From positions 1-45,108 of the forward strand of contig NZ_JADYTX010000017.1 in NCBI RefSeq assembly GCF_021531475.1: DNA of 45,108 bases, written 5' to 3'. Origin of the DNA: Fusobacterium perfoetens. Its GTDB lineage: Bacteria; Fusobacteriota; Fusobacteriia; Fusobacteriales; Fusobacteriaceae. Positions 2,124 through 36,952 of this stretch are shown here, one piece after another; the stretch's first letter is position 1, and every line of letters starts with the position of its first letter. The notes beneath the pieces are model-generated. The model searched no databases. It worked only from the letters and a program-made list of their open reading frames with translations, and had not been told where the DNA came from. Made by a program: the position numbers and the translations under genes.

Positions 2124-2786
2124 TTAACTATTTTTTTTTGTTTCAAATTTAGGAATCATAAAAGTCATAGATTTTTCTAAATGTTTTCTATTTATCTTTA
2201 GAGCTTTTTTAAGATCTTTATTTTTTATACATTCAAGGATTTGAACGTGATCACCAAAAGCCTCTTCTTTTCTAATAGTATTATCAATAGATAGTTTTCT
2301 AAATCTTTTTAGATATAGATTGATATTATTTATCATTCCCATAACTCTAGGAACTTTTGCTATTTCATATAAAACAAAATTAAATTTTGAGAAAAGTTCA
2401 AAGACTTTTTCAAGATTTTTATTTTCTATTTCAACTTTTGTATCTTCTAAAATTTTTTCAATGGTTTTAATATCATCTTCAGTAGCTTTTTGAATAACTT
2501 CTTCTAGAATTATTCCCTCTAAAGCGATTCTTATTTTATAAACTTCAACAATTTCTTCTTGAGTGAATTTTTTTACAAGTACTCCACCTTTTGCATTAGA
2601 AACAACAAGTCCTTCAAGTTCCAACATTCTAAGAGCCTCTCTTATAGGAGTTCTACTTATTTGAAATTGTTCTGAATACTCAGTTTCTATAATTCTTTCA
2701 CCTTGAGCGATTTTTCCCTCGATAATCATCTCTTTTAACACATCATAAACCTTTTCTCTCATAGATTTACTTTTTTCAATAATCAT
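2124..2786 (-). CDS. FadR-subfamily (FCD) GntR transcriptional regulator
   Basis: A 220-aa regulator. The N-terminal winged helix-turn-helix (about residues 8-75) contains the GntR signature ISRTPIREALRMLELEGLV. The rest is a helical FCD effector domain (about 80-215) with EVYKIRIALEG and FGDHVQILECIKN, the latter carrying the H usually found in the metal/effector pocket. Members typically bind a small organic acid or sugar acid and repress neighbouring catabolic or transport genes. The start at 2786 has AAGGTGAG just upstream. It is divergent from the PTS permease at 3173 and convergent with the YfcC remnant; either could be or have been its target. The effector cannot be read from sequence. 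Confidence 0.85.
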   Translation of the reverse strand: MIIEKSKSMREKVYDVLKEMIIEGKIAQGERIIETEYSEQFQISRTPIREALRMLELEGLVVSNAKGGVLVKKFTQEEIVEVYKIRIALEGIILEEVIQKATEDDIKTIEKILEDTKVEIENKNLEKVFELFSKFNFVLYEIAKVPRVMGMINNINLYLKRFRKLSIDNTIRKEEAFGDHVQILECIKNKDLKKALKINRKHLEKSMTFMIPKFETKKNS

Positions 2787-31013: not shown

Positions 31014-31058
31014 AAAGACTGACTGAGATGCTACTTAATCAAAGTTGGTCTTTTTTTT
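31014..31058 (+). terminator. Terminator after pfkA
   Basis: AAAGACTGACT (31014-31024) pairs with AGTTGGTCTTT (31043-31053) using two G-U pairs, followed by a T-run. Confidence 0.85.
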
Positions 31059-31077
31059 ATTAAAAAATTACAAAAAA

Positions 31078-31154: not shown

Positions 31155-32462
31155 ATGTTAGAGACAAAAAACGAAAATATCTATCAATTGGAAGGAAGAG
31201 TTCCTTTAAAAATTGCTGTGCCTTTAGGTGTGCAACACTTACTTGCTATGTTTTTAGGAAATATTTCACCACTTATTATTGTATGTGGAATGTTACAAAT
31301 GGAAACTGGTTTAAAAACATCTCTTATTCAAAATGCTATGTTTATTGCAGGGGTAACAACACTTATTCAAATCTACCCAGTTTTAAAAATTGGTAGTGGA
31401 CTTCCAGGAGTTATGGGAACAAGTTCTGGATTTTTAGGAAGTTGTAAAGCAATAGGTGCAAGTTATGGTTATGGTGCTATTATGGGAGCATCTATATTTG
31501 GTGCTATTTTTGAAATGATTTTAGGATATTTCATAAAACCACTTAAAAAATTATTCCCACCAATAGTAACAAGTCTTGTAGTAATATCAATCGGACTTTC
31601 TCTTTTACCAGTTGGGATAAGATATTTTGGTGGTGGATTTACAAAAGAGTTTGGAGACCCTAAACACCTTATTGTAGGAACTACAGTTATTTTGTTAGTA
31701 ATTATTTTCAATCAATTTAAAAATAGAGTAATAAGATCATCAGCTATCTTAATTAGTATAGTTATTGGTTATGCTTTGGCAATTCTTATGGGAATGGTAG
31801 ATTTTACAGCTGTAAAAGAGGCTGCTTGGATAAGTCTTCCTAAATTTATGCCTGTAAAAATAGTATTTAATACTCACGCAATCATAGCAATGGTTATTAT
31901 GTATATAGCTACTGCTGTTGAAACTGTTGGAGATTTATCAGGAATCGCTAACGGAGGACTTGACAGAGAACCAACTGACCAAGAATTATCTGGTGGAGTT
32001 ATTGCTGACGGATTTGGAAGTTTAATCGCTGCTTTCTTTGGAGTTTTACCAAATACAACATTTAGCCAAAACGTTGGACTAGTAGCAGTTACAAAAGTAG
32101 TAAATAGATTTGTTATAGGAACTGGAGCAATAGTTCTTGTACTTATGGGATTTATTCCAAAATTAAGTGCAATATTTACAGTAATGCCTCAATCAGTTCT
32201 TGGAGGAGCTGCAGTTGTAATGTTTGCTATGATATTTGTAAGTGGATTAAAATCTCTATTAAGAGAAGAGATAGATGACAGAAAAGGTTTAATTATCGCT
32301 ATATCTTTAGGACTTGGAGTAGGAATCGGAAACGTTCCAGAACTTCTTGGACAATTACCAGCTTGGGTAGGACAAATATTCGCTCAAAACGGAATCATTA
32401 TGACATTCGTTATAGCAACAGCTTTAAATTTATTATTACCAACAAAAAAAGCTGATAAATAA
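31155..32462 (+). CDS. NCS2 nucleobase permease, probably xanthine/urate
   Basis: A 435-aa membrane protein of the nucleobase-cation symporter-2 family with about 14 hydrophobic segments. Diagnostic parts: VPLGVQHLLAMFLGNISP (first helix, QH motif), TAVETVGDLSGIA (substrate-contacting E), and LPNTTFSQNVGLVAVTKVVNRF. The QNVGLV stretch is typical of xanthine/uric acid permeases rather than uracil permeases. The start at 31155 follows AAGGAGAGG; the upstream 9-codon extension is not needed. Directly upstream of a molybdenum hydroxylase operon, supporting purine import for catabolism. Confidence 0.85.
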   Translation: MLETKNENIYQLEGRVPLKIAVPLGVQHLLAMFLGNISPLIIVCGMLQMETGLKTSLIQNAMFIAGVTTLIQIYPVLKIGSGLPGVMGTSSGFLGSCKAIGASYGYGAIMGASIFGAIFEMILGYFIKPLKKLFPPIVTSLVVISIGLSLLPVGIRYFGGGFTKEFGDPKHLIVGTTVILLVIIFNQFKNRVIRSSAILISIVIGYALAILMGMVDFTAVKEAAWISLPKFMPVKIVFNTHAIIAMVIMYIATAVETVGDLSGIANGGLDREPTDQELSGGVIADGFGSLIAAFFGVLPNTTFSQNVGLVAVTKVVNRFVIGTGAIVLVLMGFIPKLSAIFTVMPQSVLGGAAVVMFAMIFVSGLKSLLREEIDDRKGLIIAISLGLGVGIGNVPELLGQLPAWVGQIFAQNGIIMTFVIATALNLLLPTKKADK

Positions 32463-32498: not shown

Positions 32499-32527
32499 TT
32501 GAAAATATTAAAAAACAATGGTAAAAT
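32499..32527 (+). promoter_or_regulatory. Promoter of the molybdenum hydroxylase operon
   Basis: TTGAAA (32499-32504), 17 bp, TAAAAT (32522-32527). It overlaps a 10-bp inverted repeat, AATATTTTCA (32477-32486) / TGAAAATATT (32500-32509), that follows the permease stop codon. Transcription would start near 32534. Confidence 0.65.
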
Positions 32528-32539
32528 TAAAAAAATAAT

Positions 32540-32634
32540 AAAAATAAGGGAGAGGAGAGTTGAAAGAAACAGTTGATGAAGATTGATTGTTCCATTCTAA
32601 ACGAAAGTTTAGAAATATCAACTCTTTTTTCTTG
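32540..32634 (+). promoter_or_regulatory. Structured leader RNA with terminator-like closing stem (candidate riboswitch or attenuator)
   Basis: Closing stem AGAGTTGA (32556-32563) with TCAACTCT (32618-32625), followed by a T-run (32626-32630). Inside are a possible hairpin AACA/TGTT (32567-32570 with 32588-32591) and a strong hairpin TTCTAAAC (32595-32602) / GTTTAGAA (32607-32614) capped by GAAA. This makes a three-way junction in which the outer stem doubles as a terminator. It does not match the purine, Moco, preQ1 or TPP consensus that I know. It lies between a promoter and the start codon of the operon. Confidence 0.5.
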
Positions 32635-32650
32635 GATAAGGTGGTGTTAA

Positions 32651-33442
32651 ATGCTAACAATAAAAGATTATATCCTAGTTGAAAATTTAGAAGAGGCTTA
32701 TAAATTAAACCAAAATATAAATAATGTTATTCTTGGTGGAACTGGTTGGTTAAAATTACAAAATAGAAATATAGGAAAAGCAATAGATTTATCAAACTTA
32801 GGGCTTGATAAAATAATTGAAGATGATGAAAAATATGTAATCGGTTGTATGACAACTTTAAGGGATATAGAGCTTAACAAATCTTTAAACGAATTTACAA
32901 AGGGAGCTATAAAAGAGAGCTTAAGACATATAGTGGGAGTTCAATTTAGAAACTCTGTAACAATAGGTGGAAGTATCTACAGTAGATTTGGATTTTCAGA
33001 TATACTTACTTCACTTTTAGCTCTTGATACTTATGTAGAGATGTATAAAGGTGGAATTATCCCTTTAAAAGATTTTGTAGATATGAAATATGATAAAGAT
33101 ATATTGGTAAATATAATTATAAAAAAATCTAAAAGATTGGTTGGATATTCATCTTTTAGAAATCAAACAACAGACTTCCCTGTCCTAACTTGTGGGGTGG
33201 CAATCCTTGACAATGGAAAAGTATTGGCAAGTATCGGAGCAAGACCACATAGAGCAAGAGTTGTGGAAGATAGTGAAAATATTTTAGAAGTTAAATCAAT
33301 GGAAAATATAGAAAAATTTGCAAAATATGTAAGTAACTCTTTAAAATTTGATAGTAATATGAGAGCAAGTGGAGAGTATAGAAAACATCTTACAGAAGTT
33401 TTAGTGAAGAGAACTTTAAAAAATCTAGTGGAGGTAAAATAA
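32651..33442 (+). CDS. Molybdenum hydroxylase FAD-binding subunit (XdhB/CoxM type)
   Basis: A 263-aa subunit of the xanthine dehydrogenase family. The FAD-binding half carries VILGGTGWL near residue 28 and IVGVQFRNSVTIGGSIYSR (about 97-115), and the C-terminal half is the CO-dehydrogenase flavoprotein domain with RPHRARVVED. It passes electrons from the iron-sulfur subunit to NAD or another acceptor. AAGGTGG is 6 nt before the ATG. Stop and next start overlap (TAATG). The three-subunit split form is the one common in anaerobes, often in selenium-dependent hydroxylases. Confidence 0.88.
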   Translation: MLTIKDYILVENLEEAYKLNQNINNVILGGTGWLKLQNRNIGKAIDLSNLGLDKIIEDDEKYVIGCMTTLRDIELNKSLNEFTKGAIKESLRHIVGVQFRNSVTIGGSIYSRFGFSDILTSLLALDTYVEMYKGGIIPLKDFVDMKYDKDILVNIIIKKSKRLVGYSSFRNQTTDFPVLTCGVAILDNGKVLASIGARPHRARVVEDSENILEVKSMENIEKFAKYVSNSLKFDSNMRASGEYRKHLTEVLVKRTLKNLVEVK

Positions 33443-33906
33443 TGGAAATAAAATTTTGGCTTAATGGAAAATTAATAGAAGATACAATAGAACCAGATAC
33501 TCCGCTACTTGAATATGTAAGATCAAAAGGGTGCTTAAGTGTAAAAAGAGGTTGTGAAACATCAAACTGCGGACTTTGTACTCTTTGGATAGATGAAAAG
33601 CCTGTACTTTCTTGTACAGTCCTAGCTGTAAGAGCTAATGGAAAAAAAGTTACAACTCTTGAGGGTCTACAAGATGAGGCTTATGAATTTGGAAAATTTA
33701 TGGCTGGAGAGGGAGCAGACCAATGTGGATACTGCAACCCTGGATTTATAATGAATGTACTTGCAATGGCAAGAGAGTTAAAAGAGTTTTCTGACGAGGA
33801 TATAAAAGAATATTTAGTTGGAAATCTTTGCAGATGTACAGGATATATGGGACAGTTTAGAGCTGTAAAAAAATATTTAGATTATAAAATGGGAGGTAAA
33901 AAATAA
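33442..33906 (+). CDS. Molybdenum hydroxylase [2Fe-2S] subunit
   Basis: A 154-aa protein with two [2Fe-2S] clusters: the plant-ferredoxin-type C38, C43, C46, C58 near the N-terminus, and the C-terminal helical cluster C95-G-Y-C98 ... C130-R-C132. It carries electrons from the molybdenum centre to the FAD subunit. Overlaps both neighbours by TAATG junctions, so the three subunits are made in equal amounts. Confidence 0.93.
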   Translation: MEIKFWLNGKLIEDTIEPDTPLLEYVRSKGCLSVKRGCETSNCGLCTLWIDEKPVLSCTVLAVRANGKKVTTLEGLQDEAYEFGKFMAGEGADQCGYCNPGFIMNVLAMARELKEFSDEDIKEYLVGNLCRCTGYMGQFRAVKKYLDYKMGGKK

Positions 33907-36191
33907 TGAAAGTAGTTAATACCTCAGTTATAAAAAAAGATGCTATGGCACTTGTTACAGGAAAACCTGTGTACACTGACGATATAGCTCCAAGTGATTG
34001 TCTAGTTATAAAACTTTTAAGAAGTCCTTATGCACACGCACTTATAGAGGATATAAATATAGATATTGCAAAAAAAGTGCCAGGAATTGAGTGTATCTTT
34101 ACATATAAAGATGTGCCAAATAAAAGATTTACTTTGGCTGGTCAAACTTATCCAGAGCCAAGTCCATATGATAGACTTATCCTTGACAAAAGATTAAGAT
34201 TTGTAGGAGACGTTGTGGCAATAGTTGCTGGAGAAAATGAAAAAGCTGTAGAAAAAGCTATAAAACTTATAAAAGTAAAATATGATGTACAAGAGCCAAT
34301 CTTGGATTTTAGAAAATCTAAAGATAGCAATATCTTAATCCACCCAGAAGAAAACTGGAAAGCTCTTTGTCCAGTAGGTGCTGACAACAAAAGAAATCTT
34401 TGTGCTAGTGCAACAGACGGAGATCAAAATATAGATAAAGTTTTTGCTGAATGTGATGTAGTTTTACAAAATACTTATCATACAAAGGCAAATCAACAAG
34501 CTCCAATGGAAACTTTTAGAGCTTATGCCACAAAAGATATGTTTGGAAGACTTAATATAGTTTCATCTACACAAATACCTTTCCACGTAAGAAGAATAGT
34601 GGCAAACGCCCTTGATATATCAAAATCAAATATAAGAGTGATAAAACCAAGAATCGGTGGAGGATTTGGAGCAAAACAAACAGCAGTAATGGAGATTTAT
34701 CCAGCTTTTGTAACTTATATGACTGGAAAAAATTCAAAACTTATCTTCACAAGAGAGGAAAGTCAAACAGCATCTAGCCCAAGACACGAAATGGAAGTTA
34801 CTGTAAAAATCGGAGCTACAAAAGATGGAAAAATAAAAGCTATTGATCTATACACACTTTCAAATACAGGAGCTTACGGAGAACACGGTCCAACAACAGT
34901 AGGACTTAGTGGACATAAATCTATTCCATTATATAGTAAAGCAGATTCATACAGATTTACTTATGATGTAGTTTATACAAATACTATGTCAGCTGGAGCA
35001 TATAGAGGTTACGGAGCTACTCAAGGAATATTTGCTATTGAATCAATAATTGATGAGTTAGCAGAAAAACTAGGAATGAATCCTATTGAACTAAGAGAAA
35101 AAAATATGGTAAGAGAGGGAGATTTTATGCCAGCTTATTATGGAGAAACTGCCAATAGCTGTGCTTTAGATAGATGTCTTGCTCGTGCTAAAAAAATGAT
35201 AGACTGGGATTCTAAATATCCACGTCGTGATATGGGAAATGGAAAAGTTAGAGGAGTAGGACTTGGATTTTCTATGCAAGGGTCTTCTATATCAAATGTT
35301 GACGTTGGTTCTGTTGCAATAAAAGTAGGAGATGATGGATTCTATAATCTTATGGTAGGTGCAACAGATATGGGAACTGGTTGTGATACAGTCCTTGCTC
35401 AAATAGCTGCTGAATGTTTAGATTGTAGCGTAGACAATATCATAACTCAAGGGGTTGATACAGATGTATCTCCATATGATTCTGGTTCTTACGCATCAAG
35501 TACAACTTATCTAACTGGAATGGCTGTTGTAAAAACTTGTGAAAAACTTATTGAAAGAATAAAAGAAAAAGGAGCTGAATATATAGGCTCATCAGTTGAA
35601 GATGTAGACTTTGACGGAAAAAGAGTATATGATTTAGCAACTAATAAAGAAATTTCTCTAAAAGATATAGCAAATAAAGCTTTTTGCAATAATACAAATA
35701 TTTTATATGCAAGCGAATCTCACTCTTCAAAAGTATCTCCACCACCATATATGGTAGGAATTGCAGAGGTAGAAGTTGACACAGAAACTGGAAAAGTAGA
35801 TATTATAAATTATAAAGCTGTGGTTGACTGTGGAACTGTTGTAAATCCTAATCTTGCAAGAATACAAACAGAGGGAGGAATCGTTCAAGGAATAGGAATG
35901 GCTCTTTATGAAGATGTAGTCTATACTGAGAAAGGAAATTTACAAACAGGTTCATTTATGCAATATAAAATCCCTACAAGAATGGATATTGGAGAAGTGG
36001 AAGTACAGTTTGAAAGTAGCTACGAGCCAACAGGTCCATTTGGTGTAAAATCAATAGGGGAAGTTGTAATAAATACTTCATCTCCAGCTATTGCTAACGC
36101 TGTATATAACGCTGTTGGTGTAAGAATAAGAGAACTTCCAATAACTCCAGAAAAAGTATTTATGGGAATGAAAAAATTAAATGAAAATTAA
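33906..36191 (+). CDS. Molybdenum hydroxylase large subunit (xanthine dehydrogenase-like)
   Basis: A 761-aa catalytic subunit with the aldehyde oxidase/xanthine dehydrogenase a/b-hammerhead domain (about 1-120) and the molybdopterin-binding domain. Seen: RIGGGFGAKQ, SAGAYRGYGATQGIFAIE (arginine that contacts purines), ATDMGTGCDTVLAQIA, DSGSYASSTTY, and the catalytic glutamate in GPFGVKSIGEVVINTSS near residue 720. Substrate is probably xanthine or a related purine given the NCS2 permease upstream, but the family also oxidises nicotinate and aldehydes. No separate sulfur or selenium insertion gene is in view. Confidence 0.88.
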   Translation: MKVVNTSVIKKDAMALVTGKPVYTDDIAPSDCLVIKLLRSPYAHALIEDINIDIAKKVPGIECIFTYKDVPNKRFTLAGQTYPEPSPYDRLILDKRLRFVGDVVAIVAGENEKAVEKAIKLIKVKYDVQEPILDFRKSKDSNILIHPEENWKALCPVGADNKRNLCASATDGDQNIDKVFAECDVVLQNTYHTKANQQAPMETFRAYATKDMFGRLNIVSSTQIPFHVRRIVANALDISKSNIRVIKPRIGGGFGAKQTAVMEIYPAFVTYMTGKNSKLIFTREESQTASSPRHEMEVTVKIGATKDGKIKAIDLYTLSNTGAYGEHGPTTVGLSGHKSIPLYSKADSYRFTYDVVYTNTMSAGAYRGYGATQGIFAIESIIDELAEKLGMNPIELREKNMVREGDFMPAYYGETANSCALDRCLARAKKMIDWDSKYPRRDMGNGKVRGVGLGFSMQGSSISNVDVGSVAIKVGDDGFYNLMVGATDMGTGCDTVLAQIAAECLDCSVDNIITQGVDTDVSPYDSGSYASSTTYLTGMAVVKTCEKLIERIKEKGAEYIGSSVEDVDFDGKRVYDLATNKEISLKDIANKAFCNNTNILYASESHSSKVSPPPYMVGIAEVEVDTETGKVDIINYKAVVDCGTVVNPNLARIQTEGGIVQGIGMALYEDVVYTEKGNLQTGSFMQYKIPTRMDIGEVEVQFESSYEPTGPFGVKSIGEVVINTSSPAIANAVYNAVGVRIRELPITPEKVFMGMKKLNEN

Positions 36192-36765
36192 TCTGGTTTT
36201 GTTAGCTAGTGGAAATAGCAAAAGATTTGGTAGTAATAAACTACTTTATAAGATAAATGGAAAAGAGATGTTTAAATATTCGGTGGATTTAGCTGATGAT
36301 TTAAAAAAATCTTTGAAAGAGACTATAAAAAATATAATAGTGGTGTCTAAATATCAAGAGATAAAAGAATATGTACTTTCTAAAAATATGATTTATGTAG
36401 AAAATCCTCAAAGTGAATTGGGGATTTCTACCTCTATTATCTTTGGGATTTCTGAAAGTGAAAAATCTGAAAGTGATTATATAATGTTTATGGTATGTGA
36501 CCAGCCCTATACAAAAAGCTCCACTATAGAGAATTTTATCAAAAGTTTTCTAAAAAGTGATAAAGGGATAGGTGCTGTGGCTTTTGAAAAAATAATGGGA
36601 AATCCTTGTATTTTTTCTTGGAAGTATCTTGAGAATTTAAAAAAACTCTCTGGAGATATTGGTGGAAAAAAGATAATAAAAGAAAATCTTGATGATGTGT
36701 ATATTTACGAGGTATCAACTAAAAAAGAATTGGAAGATATAGATTTTTTGAATAAAAATACTTGA
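36181..36765 (+). CDS. mocA: Molybdenum cofactor cytidylyltransferase-like protein
   Basis: A 194-aa nucleotidyltransferase of the MobA/MocA family. Nucleotide-binding LLASGNSKRFGSNKLL sits at residues 6-21, and FMVCDQPYTKSSTI supplies the metal-binding D near residue 102. It would attach CMP (or another nucleotide) to molybdopterin, the form used by xanthine dehydrogenase-type enzymes, so it serves the three preceding genes. It overlaps the large-subunit gene by 11 nt. Its TGA stop lies inside the -35 box of the infC promoter, and no terminator separates them. Confidence 0.85.
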   Translation: MKINLVLLASGNSKRFGSNKLLYKINGKEMFKYSVDLADDLKKSLKETIKNIIVVSKYQEIKEYVLSKNMIYVENPQSELGISTSIIFGISESEKSESDYIMFMVCDQPYTKSSTIENFIKSFLKSDKGIGAVAFEKIMGNPCIFSWKYLENLKKLSGDIGGKKIIKENLDDVYIYEVSTKKELEDIDFLNKNT

Positions 36766-36790: not shown

Positions 36791-36810
36791 ATCATAGTTG
36801 AATTAATGAA

Positions 36811-36924
36811 GTAGAAACTCCCGTTTCTCACCTTACAGGCTACGAGCTTTTATAAGGTAACGAGTAATTAAAATAATAATTATTTTGATTTTATAACGGG
36901 GTTGGTCTGACCTCGTTTTTTTAT
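36811..36924 (+). promoter_or_regulatory. L20-type leader with terminator and antiterminator
   Basis: Terminator: AACGGGGT (36895-36902) with ACCTCGTT (36910-36917) and T-run. Competing pairing: CCCGTT (36820-36825) is complementary to AACGGG (36895-36900), and the same CCCGTT also lies in a 5' hairpin AGAAAC (36813-36818)/GTTTCT (36823-36828). A middle stem is ACCTTA (36830-36835)/TAAGGT (36853-36858). This fits autoregulation in which L20 stabilises a leader fold that permits termination, as known for the Bacillus infC operon. Confidence 0.75.
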
Positions 36925-36952
36925 ATGATTATCTTATTAGGAGGTGTCGGCT

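Follow-up and report, generated by a model that had tools for sequence, protein, structure and literature searches.

In a 45,108-nt stretch of Fusobacterium perfoetens DNA (assembly GCF_021531475.1, contig NZ_JADYTX010000017.1, positions 1 to 45,108; hereafter the window), the gap between an NCS2 purine permease gene (pbuX-like) and a molybdenum hydroxylase operon headed by an xdhB-like gene contains an RNA leader (32548-32633, forward strand) that, judging from its sequence in three species, is a real and conserved cis-regulatory element. We posit that this leader probably acts as a ribosome-controlled transcription attenuator of the operon, in which a mini open reading frame (ORF) would be initiated from within the 5' arm of a predicted intrinsic terminator. 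This reading, which draws on modelled folds, explains the combined conservation of terminator stem, U-run and Shine-Dalgarno (SD) site with start codon better than a metabolite sensor does. As the comparison amounts effectively to two independent sequences, and to predictions, our confidence in the attenuator stays moderate.

The predicted fold of the leader is a three-way junction closed by an outer stem, P1, that runs straight into the U-run. P1 pairs AGAGTTGA (32556-32563), which holds the TTG start codon of the mini-ORF, with TCAACTCT (32618-32625), and may be extended by pairing of the purine-rich GGGAGAGG (32548-32555), the SD region of the mini-ORF, against the U-run side TTTTTCTT (32626-32633). 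The P1 3' arm, U-run and adjoining CTTGGA (32618-32636) form the predicted terminator end, with TTTTT directly 3' of the arm as in an intrinsic terminator. Within P1 lie two hairpins: P2 (32568-32591; 10 bp, 32568-32577/32582-32591, loop GAAG), whose 3' arm contains the mini-ORF stop codon, and P3 (32595-32614; 8 bp, 32595-32602/32607-32614, loop GAAA). The minimum free energy of the leader is -31.7 kcal/mol compared with -15.9 (sd 2.8) for shuffled sequences, giving a z score of -5.7 with none of 200 shuffles as good. A preliminary description of this DNA had placed here a promoter, an outer stem around two hairpins (one of 8 bp with a GAAA loop) and a U-run, and had treated junction and terminator as a single object; all of these were located as claimed, the promoter and the terminator as predictions, but the description had overlooked that the structure also contains a mini-ORF with its own SD site.

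Conservation of the leader points to a maintained structure. Two further species of the genus, represented by genomes G030 and G032, have it as well, in the same permease-xdhB gap. G033, also of the genus, is the fourth to have this xdhB, but its sequence is cut off by the end of the contig and a search for the permease recovered no copy; the leader comparison comprises the window, G030 and G032. Folded separately, the leaders of the two relatives form the same three helices (z -4.6 and -4.1). P1, its U-run end with CTTGGA, and TCAACTCTTTTTTCTTGGA are invariant across the three species. In P2, three pairs switch between G-U and A-U and all are kept across the two lineages, while in P3, aligned in structural register, two pairs show compensatory changes, being altered on both sides and still paired (A-U to U-A and C-G to U-A). 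Overall, 12 of the 13 base pairs that vary between species remain paired, two of them via changes on both sides, a count that leans towards the structure because the alignment and the P3 register were set to it by hand, although each lineage folds on its own to the same helices. A covariance model of the three leaders, searched against 98 genomes of the phylum, scored the three true members at 88-115 bits and everything else at no more than 34 bits; no other convincing member was found among these genomes, the low-scoring matches inspected being simple hairpins, coding sequence or unrelated. Searching the window's own genome with the leader DNA likewise gave no second copy, the remaining matches being AT-rich noise.

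The preliminary description had interpreted this structure as a sensor of a purine or of a molybdenum species. In this reading xanthine, urate, guanine, molybdate or a form of the molybdenum cofactor would either stabilise the junction and its P1 terminator or prevent that terminator from forming. A ligand of the purine type is a reasonable idea, as xanthine dehydrogenase genes are known to be preceded by a guanine riboswitch variant that senses xanthine (PMC9295807), and it is favoured by the position of the leader before an operon of purine-catabolic type, by the three-way junction with its conserved P1, and by riboswitches at related sites. In genera g8 and g13, the purine riboswitch RF00167 (67-79 bits) lies directly 5' of the xdhB orthologue (2362-2464, minus strand, in L019, L020 and L022; 1323-1420 in L021) and is followed by a terminator-like hairpin; with a genuine purine riboswitch ahead of the orthologous operon in these genera, the slot itself is a regulatory one. 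In three genus mates (L162, L163 and L164) a purine riboswitch precedes an NCS2 permease that is 43-47% identical to the window's permease; Rfam gave no match at the permease in the window, nor near its close orthologues and the second permeases in G030 and G032.

At the leader itself no known Rfam family is recognised, in line with the absence of purine, Moco, preQ1 and TPP consensus features stated in the preliminary description. Rfam at gathering and relaxed thresholds returned nothing credible (the best relaxed match being RAGATH-27 at 23.7 bits, where 76.1 are needed), and the RF00167 covariance model did not match, although that model clearly recognises three purine riboswitches at other places in this genome. 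The molybdenum cofactor RNA RF01055 was matched neither at the locus nor in the window's own genome (G000), G030 and G032. RF00167 resembles the leader in its three-way junction closed by P1, but the leader is without its conserved purine junction or loop-loop bases, indicating from sequence that it is a different device. The NMT1 xanthine/uric acid riboswitch shares the association with purine oxidation genes (PMC7373994); it differs in that no Rfam family matches the leader. Furthermore, the junction strands read AAGA/CCA/ATA in the window and GTAA/none/AAAA or GAAA in the relatives, none of the hairpin loops is shared by the two lineages, and the helices vary in length as well. No conserved aptamer core was found in junctions or loops, a weak test with two lineages only; this variation speaks against a classical metabolite aptamer, there being no conserved ligand pocket visible. 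Combined with the confinement of the leader to one locus in three species, these observations make a metabolite riboswitch unlikely. Of the preliminary interpretation, the cis-regulatory RNA candidate thus stands, with covariation in relatives, and the metabolite sensor does not fare well.

The most constrained sequence is instead the terminator stem with its U-run, together with the SD and start of the mini-ORF that overlap the 5' arm. The mini-ORF (32560-32586, forward strand; TTG AAA GAA ACA GTT GAT GAA GAT TGA) would encode MKETVDED in the window, and MSKTINFVMKY and MSKTINFVIKY in G030 and G032 (8-11 codons), starting in the terminator 5' arm and stopping in P2. All three species have an SD and TTG in the P1 5' arm, AAGGGAGAGGAGAG-TTG in the window and GAGGTGA-AAGAG-TTG in the relatives, where the SD lies 5 nt 5' of the start codon. 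SD duplex energies are -10.1 kcal/mol in the window and -11.7 in both relatives, comparable to those of the xdhB SD (-11.7 in the window, and -12.0 kcal/mol). Leader shuffles contained an ORF as good in 17 of 2000 cases for the window and in 1 and 3 of 2000 for the relatives. Both lineages preserve the reading frame and the places of start and stop; they differ by a 9-nt in-frame indel, and the stop is TGA in the window and TAA in the relatives at the same structural place in P2. Further evidence comes from comparing G030 with G032, whose ORFs differ at three sites, each the third base of a codon (probability 1/27 were the positions free), and from the sole mismatch in their extended P1, the U of GAGGUGA, which is a base required by the SD, so that pairing appears to yield to the SD match. 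Each of these points is modest individually, but together they make translation of the mini-ORF likely. Two other coding possibilities were discarded: a longer overlapping ORF of 24-25 codons (TTG 32573 or ATG 32576) is lost in the relatives, and selenocysteine at the mini-ORF TGA is contradicted by the relatives' TAA.

Constraint folding, an equilibrium calculation that ignores kinetics, suggests how such translation could bear on termination. With a ribosome footprint that begins 12 or 15 nt 5' of the codon in the P site and reaches 15 nt into the message, the probability of P1 was 0.98 without a ribosome and 0.00 with a ribosome on codons 1-4 in all three species; on codon 5 it was 0.00 in the window and up to 0.25 in the relatives, and on the last codons it returned to 0.76-0.99. 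Initiation or slow early elongation should hence give read-through, and the absence of a ribosome, termination. We propose that RNA polymerase, starting near 32534 (predicted), would yield a leader of about 100 nt in which, without a ribosome, P2 and P3 would fold and draw the P1 arms together, P1 with the U-run would halt transcription 5' of xdhB, and P1 would also mask the SD of the mini-ORF. A ribosome within roughly the first five codons would cover the P1 5' arm, leaving no terminator and allowing the operon to be transcribed, while translation would also melt P2, whose 5' arm is read. A separate antiterminator hairpin would be unnecessary; a conserved one formed by the P2 5' arm and P1 3' arm (AGTTGAT/ATCAACT in the window) was considered and rejected, as this pairing is impossible in the relatives. 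That termination, translation of the mini-ORF and their mutual exclusion take place in the cell is what we infer, and candidate signals are slow decoding of codons 2-5 or shifts in the rate of initiation.

Several observations weigh against a ribosome-controlled attenuator. There are only three sequences from two lineages; the mini-ORF peptide differs from one lineage to the other and shows no telling codon in series; the SD of the window is less regular than that of the relatives; a purine-rich arm opposite a U-run resembles an SD for free; and P1 encloses a large junction with eight core pairs, of which three are G-C, which bears on its predicted strength as a terminator. Codons 2-5 encode K E T V in the window or S K T I in the relatives, with no operon-linked amino acid prominent, and Thr ACA (codon 4) is the only sense codon after the start common to all three species. 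The lack of a codon run and the differing peptide argue against a classical amino-acid attenuator. Signal-sensing codons or peptides are a trait of classical amino-acid attenuators and arrest peptides, not of every leader-ORF attenuator.

A simpler possibility is that the structure is a plain, unregulated terminator of the pbuX transcript, with xdhB expressed via leak-through or another promoter and the mini-ORF arising by chance. A terminator scan found no further terminator between the permease gene and the leader, and in relatives from another genus (g14) the gap is occupied by a simple hairpin terminator, as this explanation would have it; in the remaining genera of the family xdhB lies directly 3' of the permease. 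However, a conserved extended -10 element lies between pbuX and the structure, the stem sequence is invariant in a fold more elaborate than a terminator requires, and both lineages retain the mini-ORF together with its SD, so that we regard a plain terminator as rather improbable. An RNA-binding protein or small RNA, in place of the ribosome, could also choose between P1 and read-through, and the clustering of conserved sequence in P1 and in the bases 3' of the U-run (CTTGGA) would suit such a factor; by eye, though, the leader has neither a recognisable LicT/SacT-type antiterminator sequence nor the paired hexaloop hairpins of ANTAR targets, no candidate protein beside the operon came to light, although no search was aimed at one, and we consider such a factor highly unlikely.

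A ribosome-controlled attenuator at this locus would resemble the bmrB leader of Bacillus subtilis bmrCD, where a leader ORF precedes an intrinsic terminator and ribosome position sets read-through (PMC4191407); the ORF here is shorter (8-11 codons), with an SD and start codon that belong to the 5' arm of the terminator itself, and the leader shows no antiterminator and precedes a metabolic operon. It is also similar to the candidate motifs uORFC-6-1 and uORFC-8-2, conserved RNA structures with an embedded upstream ORF 5' of a regulated gene that have been proposed to act by ribosome stalling, but the two motifs are found 5' of hflX and cysS, in other phyla, rather than 5' of an xdhB operon, and uORFC-8-2 has tell-tale cysteine codons that the mini-ORF does not (PMC8632094). 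A more specific version, which we advance tentatively and consider doubtful as a whole, is a compact attenuator in which SD and start codon constitute the 5' arm of a three-way-junction terminator, initiation and not codon-specific stalling is the signal, and the device sits in the slot held by a purine riboswitch in other genera. If the attenuator is real, ribosome occupancy of a mini-ORF would control a purine-type molybdenum hydroxylase operon in one genus, while in others a purine riboswitch would do so from the corresponding site. This would be a clear instance of one attenuation device exchanged for another, and very short leader-ORF control (8-11 codons, no antiterminator) would be present in Fusobacteriota.

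The leader is preceded by a predicted sigma-70 promoter (32499-32527, forward strand; TTGAAA 32499-32504, 17-nt spacer, TAAAAT 32522-32527) with an extended -10 (TGGTAAAAT), the TG lying one base 5' of the predicted -10. The extended -10 recurs in G030 and G032, 31-32 nt 5' of the mini-ORF start (counted by eye for G030). Upstream is the permease gene (31158-32462, forward strand; TIGR03173 at 404 bits against a cut-off of 414, TIGR00801 above its cut-off). Downstream, on the same strand, the xdhB SD GGTGGTG (32640-32646) is followed by genes for an xdhB-like FAD subunit (32651-33442; PF00941, PF03450), an xdhC-like 2Fe-2S subunit (33442-33906; PF01799; XdhC_XDHase 3e-39, below the curated cut-off), an xdhA-like molybdenum-binding subunit (33906-36191; XdhA_XDHase 5e-195, 650 bits, cut-off 780) and a mocA-like NTP transferase of the molybdenum cofactor cytidylyltransferase family (36181-36765; TIGR03310 9e-34, below cut-off; PF12804), domain matches that confirm the operon type named in the preliminary description. 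The enzyme is xanthine-dehydrogenase-like and the substrate this implies is likely but not certain, because the exact xanthine dehydrogenase and pbuX models score under their curated cut-offs. PF06463, the moaA marker, occurs in each of the three genomes with operon and leader and is missing from two complete genus mates without the operon, which fits a working molybdenum enzyme.

The xdhB-like protein (32651-33442) is up to 59% identical to proteins of Lachnospiraceae compared with about 36-48% for other Fusobacteriaceae genera, and this greater proximity to Lachnospiraceae suggests horizontal transfer of the operon. The closest protein relatives outside the family are in Lachnospiraceae, where the 27 regions inspected 5' of the orthologous operons (50-59% identical) were all without such a leader. 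Elsewhere in the neighbourhood, the pfkA-permease gap contains a terminator-like sequence at 31018-31060, GACTGACTGAGATGCTACTTAATCAAAGTTGGTC then TTTTTTTT (by eye only), and a ribosomal protein L20 leader (RF00558, 64.1 bits) at 36803-36930 lies ahead of ribosomal genes 3' of the operon.
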